Shown here: one piece after another, positions 27,176 to 36,535 of the stretch
Layout of the letters: each line of letters starts with the position of its first letter
Position numbering within the stretch: position 1 is the first letter of the stretch
From: Roseibium algicola
GTDB taxonomy: Bacteria; Pseudomonadota; Alphaproteobacteria; Rhizobiales; Stappiaceae
Length of the DNA stretch: 64,000 nucleotides
Assembly (NCBI RefSeq): GCF_001999245.1
Contig: NZ_CP019630.1
Location: 4,865,001 to 4,929,000 of the forward strand
Direction of reading: 5' to 3'
Notes under the pieces: model-generated
The model's database searches: none
The model's input: the letters and a program-made list of their open reading frames with translations, nothing else
Told to the model about the DNA's origin: nothing
Translations under genes and position numbers: made by a program

Positions 27176-27262
27176 CGGGGTGCAGTCATGCTGGTGAATG
27201 CGTCCGGAGTGAGGGAAGTCTCCCACTGCTGTGATCCGCTTCGGAGTAGGCCGGCATGAAAG

Positions 27263-27300
27263 AGGCGTGGCCGGAAACCCGGCCACGCCTCGTCATTTTC
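27263..27300 (+). terminator. Rho-independent terminator after VOC gene
   Basis: GAGGCGTGGCCGG (27263-27275) and CCGGCCACGCCTC (27280-27292) form a perfect 13-base stem with a short loop, followed by GTCATTTT. It also faces the convergent lipoprotein gene. Confidence 0.85.
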
Positions 27301-27319
27301 AAGACTGACTGTTGATGCG

Positions 27320-27814
27320 TCAGGAGGAAACCGGCGGACAGGAGCTACCCTGTTCAGCGCGCGATTTCAGACCTTGGAGGCTCTGCATCGTGTTCGGGTT
27401 GCCCGGCAGAACGAAGCTCTGCTCAAGCGCCGTGCGCACGTTGTTGATCACGGCAAGATCCTGAACAGCCAGCGTCTGGCAAGGCGTTCCGGTAAAGCGA
27501 ACCCGGATGCGGATCACGCGCTGGCCGTTGTCGGATGGGCCGAATTCGGAATCGAGCGCCGGGTTCGCGCCGGTCATCGGCCGTTCCAGAACCACCATGT
27601 TCGGCTGGTCCTGCAGTACGACGGTGCCGCGTTCCTGGGCACTGGAGACCAGTGCGGACCGCACGCTTGCCGGATCGGCTGCGATATTTACCGATTGCGC
27701 GCCGGCCGGCACGTCCAGCCTTGGCTGGTCCGGCTGTGTGGGGCGCTGAGAGGACCCGGACTGGCAGGCGGCAAGAGCAAGAGCGCAAAAAGCGGATAAA
27801 ACGATACGTCGCAT
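27320..27814 (-). CDS. Small lipoprotein of unknown function
   Basis: 164 residues starting MRRIVLSAFCALALAACQSG: a lipoprotein signal with lipobox LAAC, Cys17 the acylated residue, so probably outer-membrane anchored. The mature part contains a region with VRSALVSSAQERGTVVLQDQ and IRIRVRFTGTPCQTLAVQDL; two further cysteines could pair. I do not recognise the family. It converges on the VOC gene terminator and is followed upstream by an unrelated operon. Confidence 0.72.
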   Translation of the reverse strand: MRRIVLSAFCALALAACQSGSSQRPTQPDQPRLDVPAGAQSVNIAADPASVRSALVSSAQERGTVVLQDQPNMVVLERPMTGANPALDSEFGPSDNGQRVIRIRVRFTGTPCQTLAVQDLAVINNVRTALEQSFVLPGNPNTMQSLQGLKSRAEQGSSCPPVSS

Positions 27815-27983
27815 GGGCAGTCCCAAGGTTAAAATGGTCAACTTAAGAGCCGGTCTAGAACACGTCTTCACAAAGCACAAGAAAACTGCATGTGACCGCC
27901 ACCATCTTCTGCCAGTAAACTGACATAACACTCCTAACGAAGCCTTGTGGCTTCACGGGGGCAGGGATTTCAATCGGTGAAGG

Positions 27984-29450
27984 TCAGAATGTATCGCCTG
28001 TCTTGAAACCGCCACCACCAAAACTTCCACCGCCTTTGAAACCACCACCGCCGAAGCCGCCACTGCTACCGGACCGTTTGCCGGAACTTCCGCCAAAGCC
28101 GCCACCGAAGCCTCCCATGGACTTGGGAAGACCCGAACCGTTGGGGAACGCGACCTGGCGTCCCTTCGGTTTGCGGCGCTTGTGCGAACGCTCCGCGCGG
28201 GCCCAGTATTCGGCACCGGTAATCGCACCCTTGACCAACTCGCCCAACAGGACGGTTGTCAGCTTCTCGTCGGAGAAGGTGGACTCCCAGCTGCCATAGC
28301 CGCTGGAACGGAAACGCTTGATGACGTCTGCAAGTTCCGCACGGCGTCGGCCAATATCGCGTTGCAGTTCCCTGTCCTGACGGATCTCGCGTGTAACCTG
28401 GTCGATGCGCTCCTTCAGATCCTCGATCCGCTGAACGATTTTCTCGTCTTCGGGCGAGGGGGTATCGAGCGCGGCGCGCCACAAATCCTTGAGGTCATCC
28501 GCCTGCAGAGAAACGGACAGGTGTTCCTCCGCCTTCTGGAAGTCGGTGTCTTCCCCGCTGGAAAATTCGGCGAGGGCCGAAGACAGCGTTTCGATCCGCC
28601 TGTCCAGATTGTCGAGTTCTCCGTCGATACGGTCGATGTCCGCGCTCAGGGTTTCGATGGTGCCGACAAGATCCGTTCCGGCAGCGTCGGTCATCGCATT
28701 GCGGCTGAACTCCGCGAGCTTGTCCTGTTCTTCCAGTGCGATTTCGGCACAGCGCTCCGCATGGCGCGCCATACGGTCCGGAATGCTGGTCAGCATGGCA
28801 AAATTGGCGCGGGCGTCGTTGAAGCCGACAAGGCCGGCCACCCATCTGTCGAGCGAGCGCACAAGACCGCGGTGCGCGTACGCCGGTGTTCCGAAACCGC
28901 GTTGCCACAGATACATGAACAGCGGATCGGCCTCATAGGCCTTGCCTTTTTCCTTTCGGTCCTTTTCGGACGTAGCCGCCTTGGAGGCGGCTGCCTCCGC
29001 AGTCGCCAGAGCGGCTTCTGTCTTCTCGCGCTGTGCCTGATAACCGGCATCGCCTTCCAGACGGCCGTCGACAGCCTCCATCAACTCGTCCATCTGGTTT
29101 TCGGCGGCATCACGGGCGCTATCGAGCTCGACGCGCTTCTTCTGCAACTGGCTGCGGTCGCTTTCGCACTGGCGCAACTGGTCGGTCAGGACCTTGTAGT
29201 CCGCATTGCGCTTGTCGAGAAGCTTGCGGGCTTCCCGTGCGGCGCTGTCGAGGCGTGTGTTGAGTGCTCCGGCACTGTCGGTATCCAGTCGGAACCGGGC
29301 AAGGTCCCGGTAGGCTTCACTCTGGCGTTCCTGCAGGTCTGTCAGGGCGCGGGTCGAACGCTCGATCCGCTTGCTCAGCTCGGCTTCTTCACGGCGCAAA
29401 TCGGCAAGCGACTGCTCGATGGTGCCCAGGGTCTGGCGTCCCGTCAGCAT
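27984..29450 (-). CDS. Coiled-coil protein with Gly/Phe-rich C-terminal tail, third gene of an unrecognised operon
   Basis: 488 residues, no signal peptide. Residues 5-180 are strongly heptad-like coiled coil (LADLRREEAELSKRIERSTR, LQKKRVELDSARDAAENQMD). A central non-coil block around 180-250 carries DPLFMYLWQRGFGTPAYAHR and LVRSLDRWVAGLVGFNDAR, which looks globular and conserved. A second coil follows (280-390), then a basic stretch and about 55 residues of GGFGGG repeats ending FKTGDTF. It is the last of three genes, 37 bases after the DUF6384-like gene. I do not recognise a catalytic motif. A scaffold or filament role is guesswork. Confidence 0.7.
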   Translation of the reverse strand: MLTGRQTLGTIEQSLADLRREEAELSKRIERSTRALTDLQERQSEAYRDLARFRLDTDSAGALNTRLDSAAREARKLLDKRNADYKVLTDQLRQCESDRSQLQKKRVELDSARDAAENQMDELMEAVDGRLEGDAGYQAQREKTEAALATAEAAASKAATSEKDRKEKGKAYEADPLFMYLWQRGFGTPAYAHRGLVRSLDRWVAGLVGFNDARANFAMLTSIPDRMARHAERCAEIALEEQDKLAEFSRNAMTDAAGTDLVGTIETLSADIDRIDGELDNLDRRIETLSSALAEFSSGEDTDFQKAEEHLSVSLQADDLKDLWRAALDTPSPEDEKIVQRIEDLKERIDQVTREIRQDRELQRDIGRRRAELADVIKRFRSSGYGSWESTFSDEKLTTVLLGELVKGAITGAEYWARAERSHKRRKPKGRQVAFPNGSGLPKSMGGFGGGFGGSSGKRSGSSGGFGGGGFKGGGSFGGGGFKTGDTF

Positions 29451-29487
29451 GCCGGAGCCTCCCGGTGAGGCGGTGCAATCCTAACCG

Positions 29488-30414
29488 CTACCATTTCGTA
29501 ATTGCTCCGTCCTGAACGCCGCTGCGCCATTTGATATCCAGCTCTCCGCGCCGCTTCTGCCCCAGGACGCCTTTCTGCACAATGCCGTCTTCCATCTTGT
29601 CGCGGCGAACGGCGTTGTAGATGGTTTCCGAAACGCGCTGGCCCCATTTGTCGACAAGTTCGACCTTGCTGCTCTCCTCCGACACGATCCTGCGCTCCAG
29701 GATCTTGCCGTCCGCGTCCACGGCTTCGACAACGATGTAGTAGTTCTCGGTGTCTGGATTGGATTCGGGAATGCGGGAAACGCCGGTCGGCACGCCTTCG
29801 CGGGAAATGATCCGAACCTCGAACACTTCCTGCAGCCGTCCGGCAAGATCGCGCAAGTCGGCCTCCGCCTTGAAGGCTGCCTCGTTGTTGCCGTCCGAAA
29901 GGGCAAGGTTGCCGTCGGTGGCCAGACGTGCGGCGTTGGCTTCGATTTCGGTATTTTCGGTCAGGGAATCGATCCGCCCGACCAATTCGGTGTAGGTCGC
30001 GGGCAGGGCCTGAAGCCTTGCCAGCAGGTCCGCTTCCGCACGTTGTGCCGGCAGCTTGACGATGAAGTACCAGGCCGCAATGCAAACGATGACGACTGCA
30101 ACGACCGCCGCCAGCCATTTTGACCAGGTGCTGCGCGAGATGTAGATCATCGCCAGCGTGCGCTGGAAGCCTGCGGAAGGTGGAGAATAGACGAAGCGGT
30201 CGCGCTTCAGGTCCTCGACACCCGCCTTCAGGATATGGTCCGGAACATCGATGCCCTGGGACGCATAGACCTGACGCAGCCGCTCGACCATGGCGGCATC
30301 GCGTTCATCGGTCTTCAGCTCGCGGGCCACCTGACCTTCTTCATGACGCAGCGTGTCGACCACGTCCATCGCCATCATCAGATCGTCAAGCGGGGCGTCG
30401 GATTTGCTTGCCAT
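29488..30414 (-). CDS. DUF6384-like single-pass membrane protein
   Basis: 308 residues. The N-terminal 90 (LDDLMMAMDVVDTLRHEEGQ, ASQGIDVPDHILKAGVEDLK) are helical and cytosolic; a single membrane segment lies at about 101-120 (WLAAVVAVVIVCIAAWYFIV); the remainder is probably periplasmic, with a short coil and a beta-rich end (VPTGVSRIPESNPDTENYYI, DADGKILERRIVSEESSKVE). I associate it with DUF6384 from memory; that label carries no function. It sits between two coiled-coil genes, 62 bases after the first, and would tie the system to the inner membrane. Confidence 0.65.
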   Translation of the reverse strand: MASKSDAPLDDLMMAMDVVDTLRHEEGQVARELKTDERDAAMVERLRQVYASQGIDVPDHILKAGVEDLKRDRFVYSPPSAGFQRTLAMIYISRSTWSKWLAAVVAVVIVCIAAWYFIVKLPAQRAEADLLARLQALPATYTELVGRIDSLTENTEIEANAARLATDGNLALSDGNNEAAFKAEADLRDLAGRLQEVFEVRIISREGVPTGVSRIPESNPDTENYYIVVEAVDADGKILERRIVSEESSKVELVDKWGQRVSETIYNAVRRDKMEDGIVQKGVLGQKRRGELDIKWRSGVQDGAITKW

Positions 30415-30476
30415 GAATGCATGTCTTCTTGAAAAAGGGCGGGCCGGAGGGTCCGGCCTGCCGGATTATCGTCAGA

Positions 30477-31682
30477 TCAAAGGGCCTTGCCCTGGGCGGT
30501 CAGCTTGGCAAGCCGCCGCTTGCCGTCTTCCACGGCGTTGCGGATTTCCTCGGAATTCTTGGTCGACATCTCGCGCATTTCGTCGATGATTTCACGCGAC
30601 TGGAACTGGAAGTTGACGACGGAGTCGACCAGCTTTTTCACCGAGGCTGCGGCAACGGTCGGTCCATAGCCGGCTTCGAGTGCCTTTTTCTGCACTTCGT
30701 CGCCGATGTCCGCCAGCGTTTCCAGGCTCTTGTTGATGCCGTCCTTCATGGCATTCAGCGTCTCGGTGCTTTCGTGCAGGCCCTGCAGGCCGGTGAACGA
30801 GGCGTTGAGTGCGGTGAGAACGGATTCATTGGTGGAGAAGAAACTGACCGACTGGGCGTAAACGCGCTCCTTGGCGTTGGTTGTCTGGACCAGGCGCGCC
30901 ATGATGACCTCTGACGTGTTGTAGCCGATCGTCAGGTTGTCGGAGAGGTCCTTGGCGATCTGATACCGCTTTTCCTCGTCCTGCATTTCACGCAGCTTCT
31001 CGTCGCGTGCCAGTTCTAGGCGTGCCTTCTGCGCCGGGTCGTCACCGGTGTAGGCTTCGACTTCGCCGGAGGCAGCTTCAAGGGCACCCTTGGCAGCGTC
31101 CAGTTTGCCGGTTGCGATATTCAGCAGTTCCAGTGCGGTGACTTCCGCCTGTTTCAAGGCACCGCGGAAATCGCGATAGGCTTCAAGAATGGTCTGTTCC
31201 CGCTCGATCTGGTCCTTGGTTGCCTTTGCAACGTCCTTGTAGGTACCCCGGATATCATCGAAACGATCGGAAATGGTCCCGCGGCGGAAGTCGCGCCACT
31301 TGTTGGACAGGTTCTCGGTGAAGGAGATCTTGCCGTCGGCAAGCTGATCGACCAGCGCCTTCGCGTCATCGCGGATGGAATTGAACGCCTCGGTGATCTG
31401 CTCGTAGCGTTCGCCGATATCCATCTGCTGCACCTGCGAGCGAACAACCTCGTTGAAATTGGAAGCCTGGGCCAGGGTCCGGGTGATGATCAGCACCTTG
31501 TCGGGAGAAAGATCGGTGATCTGTTCCAGAAGGGCGTTGATCGGTGCATCCTGCTCGCTTTCCGGCGTGATGCCGATGTCGCGGAGGGTCGACAGCGCTC
31601 GGTCGAGGTACTGAAGCGGGGAAATGCTTCCCGCCGGAGCCGTTGCAGTCTGCGGGTTTTCAGGGGTTGCCGCGTCTGTCAT
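30477..31682 (-). CDS. All-helical TelA-like protein, first gene of an unrecognised operon
   Basis: 401 residues starting MTDAATPENPQTATAPAGSI after a perfect AAGGAGGT. Almost entirely helical: IERE...AYRDFRGALKQAEVTAL, EARDEK-type coil around 200, and a C-terminal half with NLTIGYNTSEVIMARLVQTT, LQGLHESTETLNAMKDGINK and VNFQFQSREIIDEMREMSTK. The arrangement of long helices and the internal 'I-N-K-S-L' style repeats recall the TelA/KlaA tellurite-associated family, but I cannot confirm homology. It leads the three-gene operon and is divergent from an MscS channel. Confidence 0.65.
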   Translation of the reverse strand: MTDAATPENPQTATAPAGSISPLQYLDRALSTLRDIGITPESEQDAPINALLEQITDLSPDKVLIITRTLAQASNFNEVVRSQVQQMDIGERYEQITEAFNSIRDDAKALVDQLADGKISFTENLSNKWRDFRRGTISDRFDDIRGTYKDVAKATKDQIEREQTILEAYRDFRGALKQAEVTALELLNIATGKLDAAKGALEAASGEVEAYTGDDPAQKARLELARDEKLREMQDEEKRYQIAKDLSDNLTIGYNTSEVIMARLVQTTNAKERVYAQSVSFFSTNESVLTALNASFTGLQGLHESTETLNAMKDGINKSLETLADIGDEVQKKALEAGYGPTVAAASVKKLVDSVVNFQFQSREIIDEMREMSTKNSEEIRNAVEDGKRRLAKLTAQGKAL

Positions 31683-32032
31683 GTCTGACCTCCTTGAAGG
31701 ACGCGGCTTGTTTTCAGGTATTTTGCCGCAACGTCCTGTTAACGTCATAATTTCGCATGTTAGGGCAGGCTTACGCCGCTCTGTCAACGGCTTGGCACGC
31801 ATTTCGGGCCAAAGCCGGGCAGCCTTGAAACCTGCCAGAGCCTTTCCTTAGGCCCGTTTTGCGACAAATGTGTTTCCATGGTGAAAGATCTGCCGAAATT
31901 CGCGCATAAGCTGATTGTTCGAATCGGACCGCGGATGGATGCATAAGCCTTGAAGCCCACCTGGCTTCCCTGGCGAAGCGATCGGACTGCGAACCGGAAC
32001 CGGGGCCTTGTCCCAAAAGTGATGGCGTCTTC
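31683..32032. other. Gap between the coiled-coil operon and the mscS-type gene
   Basis: This 350-base divergent spacer must hold two promoters. Apart from the ribosome-binding site of the minus-strand gene (AAGGAGGT) I see no palindrome or credible coding frame. The long minus-strand frame over it has unnatural codon choice. Confidence 0.5.
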
Positions 32033-34459
32033 ATGAAGTTTCTCAAGTGTATCCTGCTGGTTCTGGCCTTATCCATCACTTTTTCCGGCGGTATGCCGGC
32101 CGGAACGCTGCTTGCCCAGGAGGCCGGGCAGGTTCCGCCGGAGCCCATCGCGCGGTCGACCGAATTGTTCAACCGGGCGGCAACGGCGCTCGAAGAAAGA
32201 AGCGTTTCTCCAAAGACCCTCGATCAGCTCAGGTCTCAGCTCGTCGAGGTTCGGGACGCCAGTGCGGCGGTCATCGATCGCGGGAACATTCGGGCCAGCG
32301 CCCTGCAAGCCCAACTGAACAGCCTCGGTGCACCGCCCGCAGACGGGCAGAAGGAAGCTGACGAAGTTGCCGCAAGACGTCTCGAGCTTACCAATGCGCT
32401 GGCGGCCGCAAATGCACCGGTCCGAGTGGCCGGTGAAATCAACAATCAGGCTATCTTCTACATTCGCCAGGTCGACAGGCAGCTTCGCGCACGGCAACTT
32501 TCGACACTGCTGGACAGGTATCCTTCGCCGCTTGCGCCGTCGACCTGGGCCGCGGGCTTTCAGGAAATAGGGGAATTCATAAAGCGGTTCGAACGCGGTG
32601 TGCAGAACGAGCTGGCCCGCCCAAGCGTCTCGAAGAAACTGCATGAGACGGTGCCGCTTTCCCTCGGTCTGGCAATTTTCGGGATCTTGTTCCTGACGGT
32701 TCTGCAGCATCCGATTTCGCGAGCACTGAAGCTCTATTGCGAAAAGCCGGCCACCGGTGCAAAGGCGTTGATGCTGGCGGTGCTCTACAATGCCAGCTTT
32801 ATCGTGCTGCCGACCATCGGTGCCGCCGCTCTGATCTCCATATTTCCCATTCTCGACATCTATCCGAACTCGGTCCGCACGGCAGTGATCGCCGTGCCGG
32901 TGATGGCTCTCGTGATGATCATAGCGAACTGGCTGGGGCACACGATCTTTGCCCCCGGGCAGGATCGTTGGCGTCTGCTGGAGCTGGGGGACCGGGAAGC
33001 AAAACTCGGGTTGCGTCTCTGCCAGGGACTGGGAGTCTTCATGGCCCTTGAAGTGGCGGTCGAGGCATTCGAACTCGATAACGCCTTCGGTACGGCAGCG
33101 ATTTCGGTGCTTTCGGCTCCCCCCATTGCGATGGCGGCGGTACTGCTTTGGTCTCTGGCCAGCGTCATCAGATCCAACAAGTCCGTTGAGAGCAATGCCG
33201 TGGAGAGCGAGCAGACAGCGGAAGAACCCGAAGAGGCATCAGTAAAACCCCAGGAATCTGGCTTTCTGCTGTTCTTGTCGCTGCTCATGAAGACATCCGC
33301 CGTTCTTGCCGTCTGCGTAACGCTGGTCGGTTATGTCCAGCTTGCCCGGGTTGCGATCCTGCCGGTAATCATGACGGTTGCGGAGCTCGGTTTCGGCTTC
33401 ATGCTTTACCATCTCATTCTCGTTGTCGTGAAAACGGCTATCGGCAAGCGGGAAGACGAGCCCGCTCCGGTCCTCGTTGCCTTTGGGCTGATCTGTGTTC
33501 TGACACTGATTTTCGCGCCCCTGATCGCCATGACTTGGGGCGCACGCGGAACGGATATCGTCGAGGTCTGGTATCTGCTCACAAACGGGGTACAGCTGGG
33601 CGACATTCACCTGTCGCTGGACTCCTTCATCGTCCTGGTTGCCATTTTCGGCATTGGCGTTGTTGTGACGCGTTGGCTGCAGAACCTGCTGAAGGCGACC
33701 GTGCTGCCACAAACGCGGATGGACAGTGGCGCTCAGAATGCTGTTGTGACGGGCACAGGCTATGTCGGGCTTACGCTGGCGGCTTTGATTGCGATTTCCA
33801 CCGCCGGATTGAACCTGTCCAGTCTTGCGGTCGTGGCCGGTGCCCTTTCGGTCGGTATCGGTTTTGGTCTTCAGACCATCGTTTCCAACTTCGTTTCCGG
33901 CATCATCCTGCTCATCGAACGGCCGATCAAGGAAGGGGACTGGATAGAAGTATCCGGGCAATCCGGATATGTCCGCAAGATCTCTGTCCGTTCAACGCGC
34001 ATCGAAACCTTCGACCGCCATGACGTCATCATTCCGAATTCGGAGCTGATTGCCGGCACGGTCAAGAACATGACGCTGACCAGCAAGTCGGGCCGGCTTA
34101 TCCTGCCGGTTGGCGTTGCTTATGGCAGTGATCTGGAAAAGGTGAAATCGATCCTGTTCGATGCAGCGCGCGGGCACAGCACGATCGCGCGTTATCCGAC
34201 GCCGCAGGTTCTTTTCATCGGGCTGGGCGACAGCTCTCTGAATTTCGAACTGAGATGTTTCCTGAAAGACATCGGCAATGTGATGATTACCAAGTCGGAC
34301 CTTTACTTTACGGTCTACAACGAGCTTGGCAAGGCGGGTATCGAGATACCGTTCCCGCAGCGGGACCTGCATTTCAAGGATATCGACCGGTTGGCGGCGG
34401 CGCTTGAGCGCCGTCAGGCGCCGGAAGTGCCTCAACCGGTGGAAGACAAACCGTCCTGA
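32033..34459 (+). CDS. MscS-family mechanosensitive channel with DUF3772 N-terminal domain
   Basis: 808 residues. A signal peptide (MKFLKCILLVLALSITFSGG then AQEAGQ) and a periplasmic helical domain of about 170 residues of the DUF3772 type are followed by roughly ten membrane segments. The pore helix region is ALSVGIGFGLQTIVSNFVSG, then the MscS beta domain with IKEGDWIEVSGQSGYVRKIS, RHDVIIPNSELI and a C-terminal domain (PFPQRDLHFKDID). This is the large MscK/YbdG-like layout for osmotic protection in the inner membrane. It ends at a terminator 10 bases after the stop. Confidence 0.88.
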   Translation: MKFLKCILLVLALSITFSGGMPAGTLLAQEAGQVPPEPIARSTELFNRAATALEERSVSPKTLDQLRSQLVEVRDASAAVIDRGNIRASALQAQLNSLGAPPADGQKEADEVAARRLELTNALAAANAPVRVAGEINNQAIFYIRQVDRQLRARQLSTLLDRYPSPLAPSTWAAGFQEIGEFIKRFERGVQNELARPSVSKKLHETVPLSLGLAIFGILFLTVLQHPISRALKLYCEKPATGAKALMLAVLYNASFIVLPTIGAAALISIFPILDIYPNSVRTAVIAVPVMALVMIIANWLGHTIFAPGQDRWRLLELGDREAKLGLRLCQGLGVFMALEVAVEAFELDNAFGTAAISVLSAPPIAMAAVLLWSLASVIRSNKSVESNAVESEQTAEEPEEASVKPQESGFLLFLSLLMKTSAVLAVCVTLVGYVQLARVAILPVIMTVAELGFGFMLYHLILVVVKTAIGKREDEPAPVLVAFGLICVLTLIFAPLIAMTWGARGTDIVEVWYLLTNGVQLGDIHLSLDSFIVLVAIFGIGVVVTRWLQNLLKATVLPQTRMDSGAQNAVVTGTGYVGLTLAALIAISTAGLNLSSLAVVAGALSVGIGFGLQTIVSNFVSGIILLIERPIKEGDWIEVSGQSGYVRKISVRSTRIETFDRHDVIIPNSELIAGTVKNMTLTSKSGRLILPVGVAYGSDLEKVKSILFDAARGHSTIARYPTPQVLFIGLGDSSLNFELRCFLKDIGNVMITKSDLYFTVYNELGKAGIEIPFPQRDLHFKDIDRLAAALERRQAPEVPQPVEDKPS

Positions 34460-34543: not shown

Positions 34544-35476
34544 TCAGACCAGTTCAGCAGCAATACGCGCGGCCAGGCGGGCATTGTTACGCACCAGCGC
34601 GATGTTGGTGTCGAGGCTGCGGCCGCCGGTCAGCTCCAGGATGGCGCCGAGAACGAACGGGGTCACGTCCTTGCCGCGAACACCCTTCGCAGTGGCATCC
34701 GCAATGGCGGCATCGATATAACCAGTCATTTCATCCCGCGGGATCTGGTCGGCTTCCGGTACCGGGTTGGCGATCAGGACACCGCCATGATCCGGGAAAC
34801 GGGACCGCATCTTCAGGAGCGAACCGATTTCGGCGGCCGAATTCAGGGAGTAGGGGGCCTTGAGGCCACTGGCCCGCGACCAGAATGCCGGTAGTTCTTC
34901 CGTGCCGAAAGCAATGACGGGAACGCCCTTGGTTTCCAGAACTTCCAGGGTCTTGGGAATGTCGAGCAATGCCTTGGCACCGGCGGACACCACACAGACC
35001 GGCGTGCGGCCAAGTTCATCAAGGTCGGCGGAAATGTCGAAGCTGTCTTCCGCGCCCTTGTGAACGCCGCCGATGCCGCCCGTGGCAAAGACCTTCAGAC
35101 CAGCGGCATGCGCCGCCATCATCGTGGCGGCGACGGTTGTCGCGCCGTAGCGTCCGGTGGCAAGTGCGAAGGTCAGGTCGGCACGTGAACACTTCATCAC
35201 GTCCTTGGCCTGTGCCAGGCGGTCGAGATCCTCATCGGAAAGGCCCACCATGATCTTGCCGTCCATCAGCGCGATGGTGGCCGGAACGGCGCCTTCCGCG
35301 CGAATATCGGCTTCCACCTCACGGGCGGTCTCAACGTTCTTCGGAAAAGGCATGCCATGAGTGATGATGGTCGATTCCAGCGCAACGACCGGCTTGCCGT
35401 TCGCAAGTGCCTCGCGCACTTCATCGCTGTAAACGATCAGATCCCTGATGGCGGAGGGCGTTGTCGGAGTGGTCAC
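34544..35476 (-). CDS. psuG: Pseudouridine-5'-phosphate glycosidase
   Basis: 310 residues from GTG 35476 (AAAGG upstream), close to the usual length. The family blocks are all present: VVALESTIITHGMPFPKN, GRYGATTVAATMMAAHAAGL, VFATGGIGGVHKGAEDSFDI and DELGRTPVCVVSAGAKALLD, the last containing the catalytic Lys region. It splits pseudouridine 5'-phosphate into uracil and ribose 5-phosphate. The in-frame ATG at 35560 would overlap the psuK region and is not favoured. It is 105 bases downstream of psuK on the same strand. Confidence 0.93.
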   Translation of the reverse strand: MTTPTTPSAIRDLIVYSDEVREALANGKPVVALESTIITHGMPFPKNVETAREVEADIRAEGAVPATIALMDGKIMVGLSDEDLDRLAQAKDVMKCSRADLTFALATGRYGATTVAATMMAAHAAGLKVFATGGIGGVHKGAEDSFDISADLDELGRTPVCVVSAGAKALLDIPKTLEVLETKGVPVIAFGTEELPAFWSRASGLKAPYSLNSAAEIGSLLKMRSRFPDHGGVLIANPVPEADQIPRDEMTGYIDAAIADATAKGVRGKDVTPFVLGAILELTGGRSLDTNIALVRNNARLAARIAAELV

Positions 35477-35581
35477 GGCGTGTGCCTTTCTGTTTTCGTC
35501 CGGCAGCTCGGGCCGGGTCAATTCTGCGGGTCTTATAGGCGCAAGGCGGAGCAGCGCCAAGATTGGAATTTGTCCATATGG

Positions 35582-36535
35582 TCAAAAGTTGGCGAGGGCA
35601 TCCCAGGAGAGCTCTTCCGCTAGGGCGCCGGTGCTGCGCAGGGTCAGGGCTGCAGCTGCAAGGCCAAAAGGGACTGCTTGCGTCAGGCCATAGCCTCTGG
35701 CGAGCGCCGCGACTGTTCCGGCGGTTAATGCATCGCCTGCTCCGGTGACATCGACGATATCTGTTTGAAGCGGTGCGAACCGGTGAAGTTTCCCGCTTTC
35801 GAGCACCAGCACATCAGATGCTGCACTGGTCAGGACAAAACTCTTGAGACCGGTCTGCGACAAGGCCGCCGCCAGGTCTTCGGAAGACGTGTCACGGGAA
35901 AGCCCGGTAAGCGTGACCGCTTCGCCGCGGTTCAGCATCAGGCAATCCAGTTTGCCGAGAACCCCACGCAGCCGGACTGCCTTGGCATCCGAAACGGCAT
36001 TGGCAACAAGACGCCCGGGCAAGGCACGCCCCGTCAGCCGGATCAGCATTGCAGCGGTCAGGTTGGCATCCAGAAACCAGATCGTATCGTCCGTCGCGTT
36101 TGCTGCAAGATCCGCGACGATACCGTCAAAGAGATCCTCGGGGGCTTGGGACAGAACACGGTCGTCAACGCAGGCGGCGGCAAGATCACCTGCCGGATTA
36201 TGCAGCGCGAGGTACTGGCCTGTTGCGAAACCTTTCCGGGCCTTCACATGCAGCTCGAGCCCTTCCTGGCTGAGCTGGCGGGAAAGCATGTCGGCAGCGC
36301 CGTCTTCTCCAACCGCTCCCACGAGGCGTGTTCCAACCCCGAGCCGAACCAGTGCACGGGCAATGTTCGTGGCAACGCCGCCAGGCTTTGCGTTCAGCCT
36401 CGATGGGGTCGAGGTCTCGGGGCGGATCGGCTCGCTGGCATGGGCGATCGTATCGTAATGGATCGCACCGATTGCGATGACGGGGGAGGAGATGGCTGAA
36501 GTCACGTTCTGGACTGTCTCATGAAAAGCCGGCAT
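35582..36535 (-). CDS. psuK: PfkB-family kinase, probably pseudouridine kinase
   Basis: 317 residues. PfkB ribokinase fold: AKPGGVATNIARALVRLG (sugar binding) and the C-terminal DVTGAGDALTAGTVAAL with the catalytic aspartate. Next to psuG, the assignment as pseudouridine kinase follows. The first 15 residues are not conserved-looking, so a later start is possible. It phosphorylates pseudouridine for PsuG. No dedicated nucleoside transporter adjoins. Confidence 0.85.
   Translation of the reverse strand: MPAFHETVQNVTSAISSPVIAIGAIHYDTIAHASEPIRPETSTPSRLNAKPGGVATNIARALVRLGVGTRLVGAVGEDGAADMLSRQLSQEGLELHVKARKGFATGQYLALHNPAGDLAAACVDDRVLSQAPEDLFDGIVADLAANATDDTIWFLDANLTAAMLIRLTGRALPGRLVANAVSDAKAVRLRGVLGKLDCLMLNRGEAVTLTGLSRDTSSEDLAAALSQTGLKSFVLTSAASDVLVLESGKLHRFAPLQTDIVDVTGAGDALTAGTVAALARGYGLTQAVPFGLAAAALTLRSTGALAEELSWDALANF

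Follow-up and report, generated by a model that had tools for sequence, protein, structure and literature searches.

PspA/IM30, an ESCRT-III-like helical hairpin protein, is thought to serve the inner membrane, and KlaABC (FiwB) is a three-gene fertility inhibition system of RP4, in which KlaB is TelA. KlaABC (FiwB) is presented as a plasmid-borne system of three proteins, all of which are required (PMC5696584). In Listeria, a membrane-active bacteriocin induces the genes for TelA and XpaC, and mutation of the TelA gene makes cells more sensitive to nisin; the same paper calls the mode of membrane protection by TelA-like proteins unknown (PMC12791056). We analyzed a 64,000-nucleotide stretch of the Roseibium algicola genome (NZ_CP019630.1, positions 4,865,001 to 4,929,000; hereafter the window), in which three adjacent genes (genes 1, 2 and 3), one of them coding for a protein of the Pfam family DUF6384, constitute a cassette that recurs on chromosomes, on megaplasmids and in a jumbo phage, and that possibly encodes a scaffold at the inner membrane.

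A near-obligate three-gene unit

The cassette lies on the minus strand of the window and comprises the following genes:

31682..30477, minus strand: gene 1 (P0001), 401 aa, all-helical, without a membrane segment, more conserved than the other two and with a possible TelA-like fold
30414..29488, minus strand: gene 2 (P0002), 308 aa, DUF6384 (PF19911), predicted single-pass membrane protein
29450..27984, minus strand: gene 3 (P0003), 488 aa, a long coiled coil whose middle, at about residues 165-235, is conserved

These genes, their positions and the gaps of 62 bases (genes 1-2) and 37 bases (genes 2-3) are as the original prediction gave them. The ribosome sites, which it had called strong, read as good before gene 1 (AGGAGGTC) and gene 3 (GGGAGGC) and as weaker before gene 2 (AAGAAGAC). 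The three genes are probably carried on a single transcript.

A search with the gene 2 protein as single query against one genome per species (84,980 species) recovered 76 loci, a count that is a lower bound and in which co-occurrence is conditional, the loci having been found through DUF6384. Gene 1 is present at 75 of these loci and gene 3 at 74, and there is no departure among the 76 from the order 1-2-3 on a single strand, which argues for a grouping beyond chance and agrees with the operon-like unit first proposed. Exactly one match per gene was obtained in 71 loci; the five exceptions are three loci that miss a gene at a contig end (L074, L083 and L104, the last also with gene 1 split over two frames), one in which two overlapping frames make up gene 3 (L081) and one with an N-run (L107). 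An apparent fusion of genes 1 and 2 (L107:8747-10882) proved to be an artefact of that N-run being read as X. Measured from the first start codon, genes 1 and 2 are no more than 100 bases apart in 66/71 loci and overlap by four bases in 11; genes 2 and 3 are no more than 100 bases apart in 71/71. A second set of 63 loci from 54 genomes (the source genome, the 30 best of 66 from the family, the 30 best of the 297-genome search described next, and others), which overlaps the 76 in part and in which gene 3 is often cut short, has 62 loci arranged as 1-2-3 and one with gene 3 in two frames.

The independent test of co-occurrence comes from 297 genomes of the order, in which genes 1 and 2 (these two only) were searched separately. 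The gene 1 profile matches 81 of them and the DUF6384 model 82, 80 of these above cut-off; all 80 are among the 81, and the two DUF6384 matches without gene 1 (G489 and G604) fall below the Pfam cut-off. The 81st genome (G594) holds a lone divergent gene 1 relative (L183:4588-5634, minus strand; profile E 8.5e-42) that adjoins a transporter-like gene; it reads as one open frame of 349 aa, and the idea that it is a remnant was dropped.

The cassette is a near-obligate three-gene unit with a patchy distribution, DUF6384 being carried by 66/87 genomes of the family and by 2/398 of an evenly drawn phylum sample. The three proteins diverge together, their pairwise identities being correlated (Spearman 0.85-0.89; 77 sets). 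The original prediction had named the absence of a conserved neighborhood in relatives as refuting it; such a neighborhood is found, and outside the family it is limited to the three genes themselves.

Predicted architecture of the three proteins

In the family counts that follow, we left out rows L099, L104 and L107 for gene 1, L104, L105 and L107 for gene 2, and L036, L081 and L097 for gene 3. The gene 2 protein is a full-length DUF6384 member (PF19911, E 2.2e-125, 418 bits against a cut-off of 25, profile 2-308 of 308), where the original prediction had it as DUF6384-like, and is 94% identical to its counterpart in R. aggregatum IAM 12614. Its membrane segment is as follows:

30058..30114, minus strand: transmembrane segment predicted in gene 2 at residues 101-119, mean hydropathy 2.87

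The family maximum hydropathy has a median of 2.24 for gene 2 versus 0.87 for each of genes 1 and 3, whose 19-residue maxima in the window are 0.80 and 0.85, respectively; hydropathy and models together support the proposed set of one membrane protein with two helical partners devoid of membrane segments. Lysine and arginine are more frequent before the segment than after it in 50/83 rows, equal in 21 and fewer in 12, an excess that makes an N-in, C-out topology likely. Conserved patches lie on both sides of the segment, and the last residue, a Trp, is invariant in 44 rows. The DUF6384 open frames of the Pseudomonas plasmids and the phage are longer (444-511 aa), and a copy from a Hydrogenedentes bin (L105:9941-11275) displays near-identical tandem repeats of ~67 residues between the membrane segment and the outer domain, which suggests that the length of an outer stalk varies.

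Gene 1 is the most constrained of the three: outside Stappiaceae, it is 59-69% identical to the window protein (42% in the phage), gene 2 34-44% and gene 3 28-34%, and its alignment retains 80 invariant columns among 38 rows. It has no convincing match in Pfam, NCBIfam, PADLOC, PHROGs or PDB sequences, and a search of solved structures by sequence, with the single gene 1 query and three profiles, likewise returned nothing convincing. The predicted model (mean pLDDT 65) features a long helical hairpin of helices 137-210 and 216-313; pLDDT is 85-97 at 161-250 and mostly <50 at 291-381 despite conservation there, as would be expected if this region folds only within an oligomer. The TelA-like character that the original prediction gave to this protein holds at most as a weak resemblance in fold, the viral fold search placing TelA-named proteins at ranks 2, 3, 5, 9 and 23 with query TM 0.29-0.37 (E 5e-5 to 2e-2). 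At the level of sequence it was rejected: Pfam TelA (PF05816) does not appear among the gene 1 matches at E up to 1 and has no match in the whole source genome, and three hhalign rounds with controls were not significant, the first two giving a probability of 0.9% with 22 rows and of 2.2% with 31 rows (score 26 versus 15 and 13 for reversed controls).

The gene 3 model has long helices (mean pLDDT 83) and a disordered tail from residue 440, with two features at its end:

27987..28133, minus strand: low-complexity Gly/Phe tail of gene 3, residues 440-488, pLDDT <50
27987..28007, minus strand: F-K-T-G-D-T-F at the C-terminus of gene 3, a near-invariant peptide across the family

The C-terminus reads ...GFKTGDTF, so the predicted TGDTF ending was correct, and the family consensus is F-[KR]-T-G-[GD]-x-F. 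Across 81 tail rows, Phe stands at -7 in 79, Thr at -5 in 79 (Ser in 2) and Phe at -1 in 76; the strict ending GF[KR]TGxxF is found in 62/81 and a looser form in 74/81, as against 1/5,798 among the other open frames of the same loci. The DNA pattern of the loose form occurs once in the source genome, inside gene 3, and is absent from the reversed control. Tails of the Pseudomonas plasmids and the phage are richer in Ser and keep endings such as STSDSF or SSSDSF. The peptide looks like a docking tag.

Carriers, flanks and regulatory elements

Record titles place the loci in Alpha- and Gammaproteobacteria, plus metagenome bins named Deltaproteobacteria, Desulfobulbaceae, Thermodesulfovibrionia, Nitrospirae and Hydrogenedentes, which may be misbinned. 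Gene 1 is found on 11 plasmid records (seven from Pseudomonas and one each from Microvirga, Bradyrhizobium, Methylorubrum extorquens AM1 and Rhizobium), and all three genes are present in 8/8 of those examined, with megaplasmids among the carriers. On two Pseudomonas megaplasmids (L110 and L114), genes nearby code for a StiP cysteine-protease-domain protein, for a peptidyl-tRNA hydrolase and for a dCTP deaminase, which we take to be a context known from tellurite-stress (Ter) modules. Annotations of gene 1 in the plasmid records are 'cell surface protein', 'merozoite surface protein 3b' and hypothetical. A full-text search of 5.39 million open papers returned no mention of DUF6384, and none of 'merozoite surface protein 3b' with Pseudomonas or of scaffold terms. 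With no description found there and no clear characterized homolog, the system originally put forward as undescribed still stands as such.

The jumbo phage phiR1-37 carries gene 1 as g190 (42.5% identical over 96%; profile E 7e-120) and DUF6384 as g191 (E 2e-27). The following g192, which the gene 3 profile missed at E 0.1, is coiled-coil-looking and ends FSSSDSFGGGGGFSSSDSF; it was assigned to gene 3 by position, length, coiled-coil look and the ending FSSSDSF, and is counted among the 81 tail rows. Viral contigs searched with the window gene 1 gave no relative and, searched with the phage copy, only one contig of 262,391 bases that is 100% identical to that copy. As to whether g190-g192 are virion proteins, a term search of the main text of PMC13030884 did not find these names.

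The flanks of the cassette in the window are as follows:

32033..34459, plus strand: MscS/MscK-like channel gene, facing the operon; a neighbor only, outside the unit
34544-36535, minus strand: pseudouridine-5'-phosphate glycosidase-like (Indigoidine_A, PF04227, by Pfam) and sugar-kinase-like (our own reading) genes
27320-27931, minus strand: small lipoprotein-like gene that follows the cassette

The Pfam scan confirms the MscS-type channel that the original prediction saw facing the cassette (PF00924, E 3e-23, plus PF21082 and PF12607). Homologs of the PF04227 gene, the sugar-kinase-like gene and the small lipoprotein gene accompany 35/36, 35/36 and 34/36 Stappiaceae-type loci, respectively, and 0/40 others, the last of the three being perhaps a lineage-specific addition; beyond the Stappiaceae-type loci, flanks are common to close relatives only.

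Two candidate regulatory elements were recognized:

31759..31788, minus strand: upstream block GTTGACA...CCTAAC, putatively promoter-like, from an alignment of 18 upstream regions
30442..30458, minus strand: GC-rich stem-loop in the gene 1-2 gap, with differing stems in relatives

The upstream block is conserved in all 18 aligned regions, including loci without the channel, and is not listed by a simple sigma-70 scan; it may be the promoter of gene 1. Stem-loops were counted at >=7 pairs with >=5 G-C, with expectations from shuffles of two-base blocks. One occurs between genes 1 and 2 in 26/36 Stappiaceae-type loci versus 3.5 expected (20/25 in an earlier count on part of these loci), and after gene 2 in 5/36; the stems differ in sequence among relatives while pairing is kept. 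The gene 1-2 gap of the window folds with a z of -2.39 (4/200 shuffles fold as well), and Rfam at gathering thresholds has no match in 27200-32300. In the window the stem is followed by a T-run, which most relatives' stems lack, and the phage record has a terminator annotated at the corresponding position. A terminator between genes 1 and 2 was rejected, there being 0 terminator-like sites there among 73 relatives, with 1.2 expected. Such a hairpin might set gene 1 in excess of the other two genes, as would fit a polymer subunit.

A candidate membrane scaffold, its rivals and known systems

We posit, as a real possibility that falls short of probable, that the cassette specifies a DUF6384-anchored cytoplasmic scaffold protecting the inner membrane. 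As a self-contained and portable unit, it would place the DUF6384 protein in the inner membrane, the conserved first 85 residues facing the cytoplasm and the C-terminal domain lying on the outer side. The gene 1 product, perhaps in excess, would oligomerize in the cytoplasm and be brought to the membrane by DUF6384, and the coiled coil of gene 3 would bridge or cap the assembly, using its flexible tail and the F-[KR]-T-G-[GD]-x-F peptide for docking. By analogy with TelA-type systems, the assembly might support the inner membrane against insults without catalysis. In favor of this reading we count the fixed order and strand, the agreement of the separate searches for genes 1 and 2, the correlated identities, the hydropathy and K/R bias of gene 2, the stronger conservation of gene 1, the TelA-named fold matches, the tail peptide, the Stappiaceae stem-loop and the Listeria findings. 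Somewhat more tentatively, we would describe the whole as an undescribed kind of portable, membrane-bound scaffold shared by chromosomes, megaplasmids and a jumbo phage, which may be assembled through a C-terminal peptide and have its gene 1 excess set by a hairpin in Stappiaceae.

Several observations weigh against this scaffold. The TelA fold matches all have TM <0.4 and come from a gene 1 model with a mean pLDDT of 65, ClyA-type bundles lead the PDB fold comparison of gene 1, and in the third hhalign round the probability was 0.7%, with 9/72 block-shuffled controls reaching at least the real score (1/36 with reversed blocks). The gene 1 profile also scores higher against gene 3 than against TelA. 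The G594 relative has no gene 2 or 3 matches in the 10 kb read, indicating that gene 1 can exist alone. Outside the Stappiaceae-type loci, the stem-loop is found in just 3/34 loci with room for it (1.6 expected). The flanks offer no recognizable stress context, sixteen neighbor proteins looking, by our own reading, like products of ordinary metabolic, transport and envelope genes. Finally, gene 3, which matches many coiled-coil models weakly, has as its best hit the Lamassu defense model LmuB of PADLOC (E 5e-10).

This last match (37 bits, profile 181-482 of 611), together with one of gene 3 to JetC (E 3e-5), carriage on megaplasmids and by phiR1-37, and the possible membership of a TelA fold, would suit a role in replicon competition or defense, in which the cassette keeps competing plasmids or phages from entering or being transferred, acting at the inner membrane in the manner of KlaABC (FiwB). 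We consider this unlikely: the LmuB and JetC matches may reflect coiled coil only, no ATPase family having been found in gene 3 by Pfam or NCBIfam; gene 2 has no PADLOC match and gene 1 a single weak one (ZorA, E 0.006); and the neighbors in Stappiaceae are constant, unlike those of a transient defense gene.

More doubtful still is the formation of a condensate or filament for positioning large DNA or membrane domains. The coiled coil of gene 3 with its FG-like low-complexity tail (43% G+S as the median over the last 70 residues; at least two F-motifs in 30/81 tails) is compatible with it, as is the presence of the cassette on large replicons such as megaplasmids and the jumbo phage. A PDB fold search of gene 3 returns coiled coils and helical bundles of many kinds, and its coiled-coil matches include the arms of SMC, MukB and Rad50; however, the SMC matches lie far below their cut-offs (30 bits versus 567), and Pfam and NCBIfam scans detect neither an ATPase nor a DNA-binding family among the three proteins.

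A multi-component pore of genes 1 and 3, comparable to ClyA/YaxAB, is very improbable: the gene 1 model does share a helical-bundle arrangement with these proteins, but neither gene 1 nor gene 3 has a strongly hydrophobic segment. An osmotic module coupled to the neighboring MscS channel, the functional tie that the original prediction drew from their divergent adjacency, is scarcely credible and largely refuted, since an MscS homolog lies within up to 10 kb on each side at 13/76 loci, all among the 36 of Stappiaceae type.

If the membrane scaffold reading is set beside known systems, its suggested tie to PspA finds no support, no PspA/IM30 family model being among the Pfam or NCBIfam matches of the three proteins at E up to 1. 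LmuB and JetC are SMC-like defense proteins, whereas no ATPase family was found in gene 3. Among the close known families is Pfam DUF6384 itself, a family without an assigned function that gene 2 matches end to end; its constant partners, genes 1 and 3, match no Pfam model above cut-off. Our analysis makes of this unnamed family a three-part system whose boundaries are exact and whose host range is wide, and which carries a short tail peptide that can be mutated, so that its function is open to direct testing. With KlaABC (FiwB), likened here by description, the cassette shares a three-protein, plasmid-borne constitution. TelA (PF05816), considered together with XpaC, resembles gene 1 in length, in being all-helical and in having no membrane segment, and TelA-named proteins are among the best, low-TM fold matches of gene 1; the cassette differs in the want of a significant sequence match and in its partners, which are DUF6384 and a coiled-coil protein bearing a tail peptide. 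Were the TelA-fold link true, TelA-like membrane protection could be studied in a second lineage, one borne by plasmids and phage.

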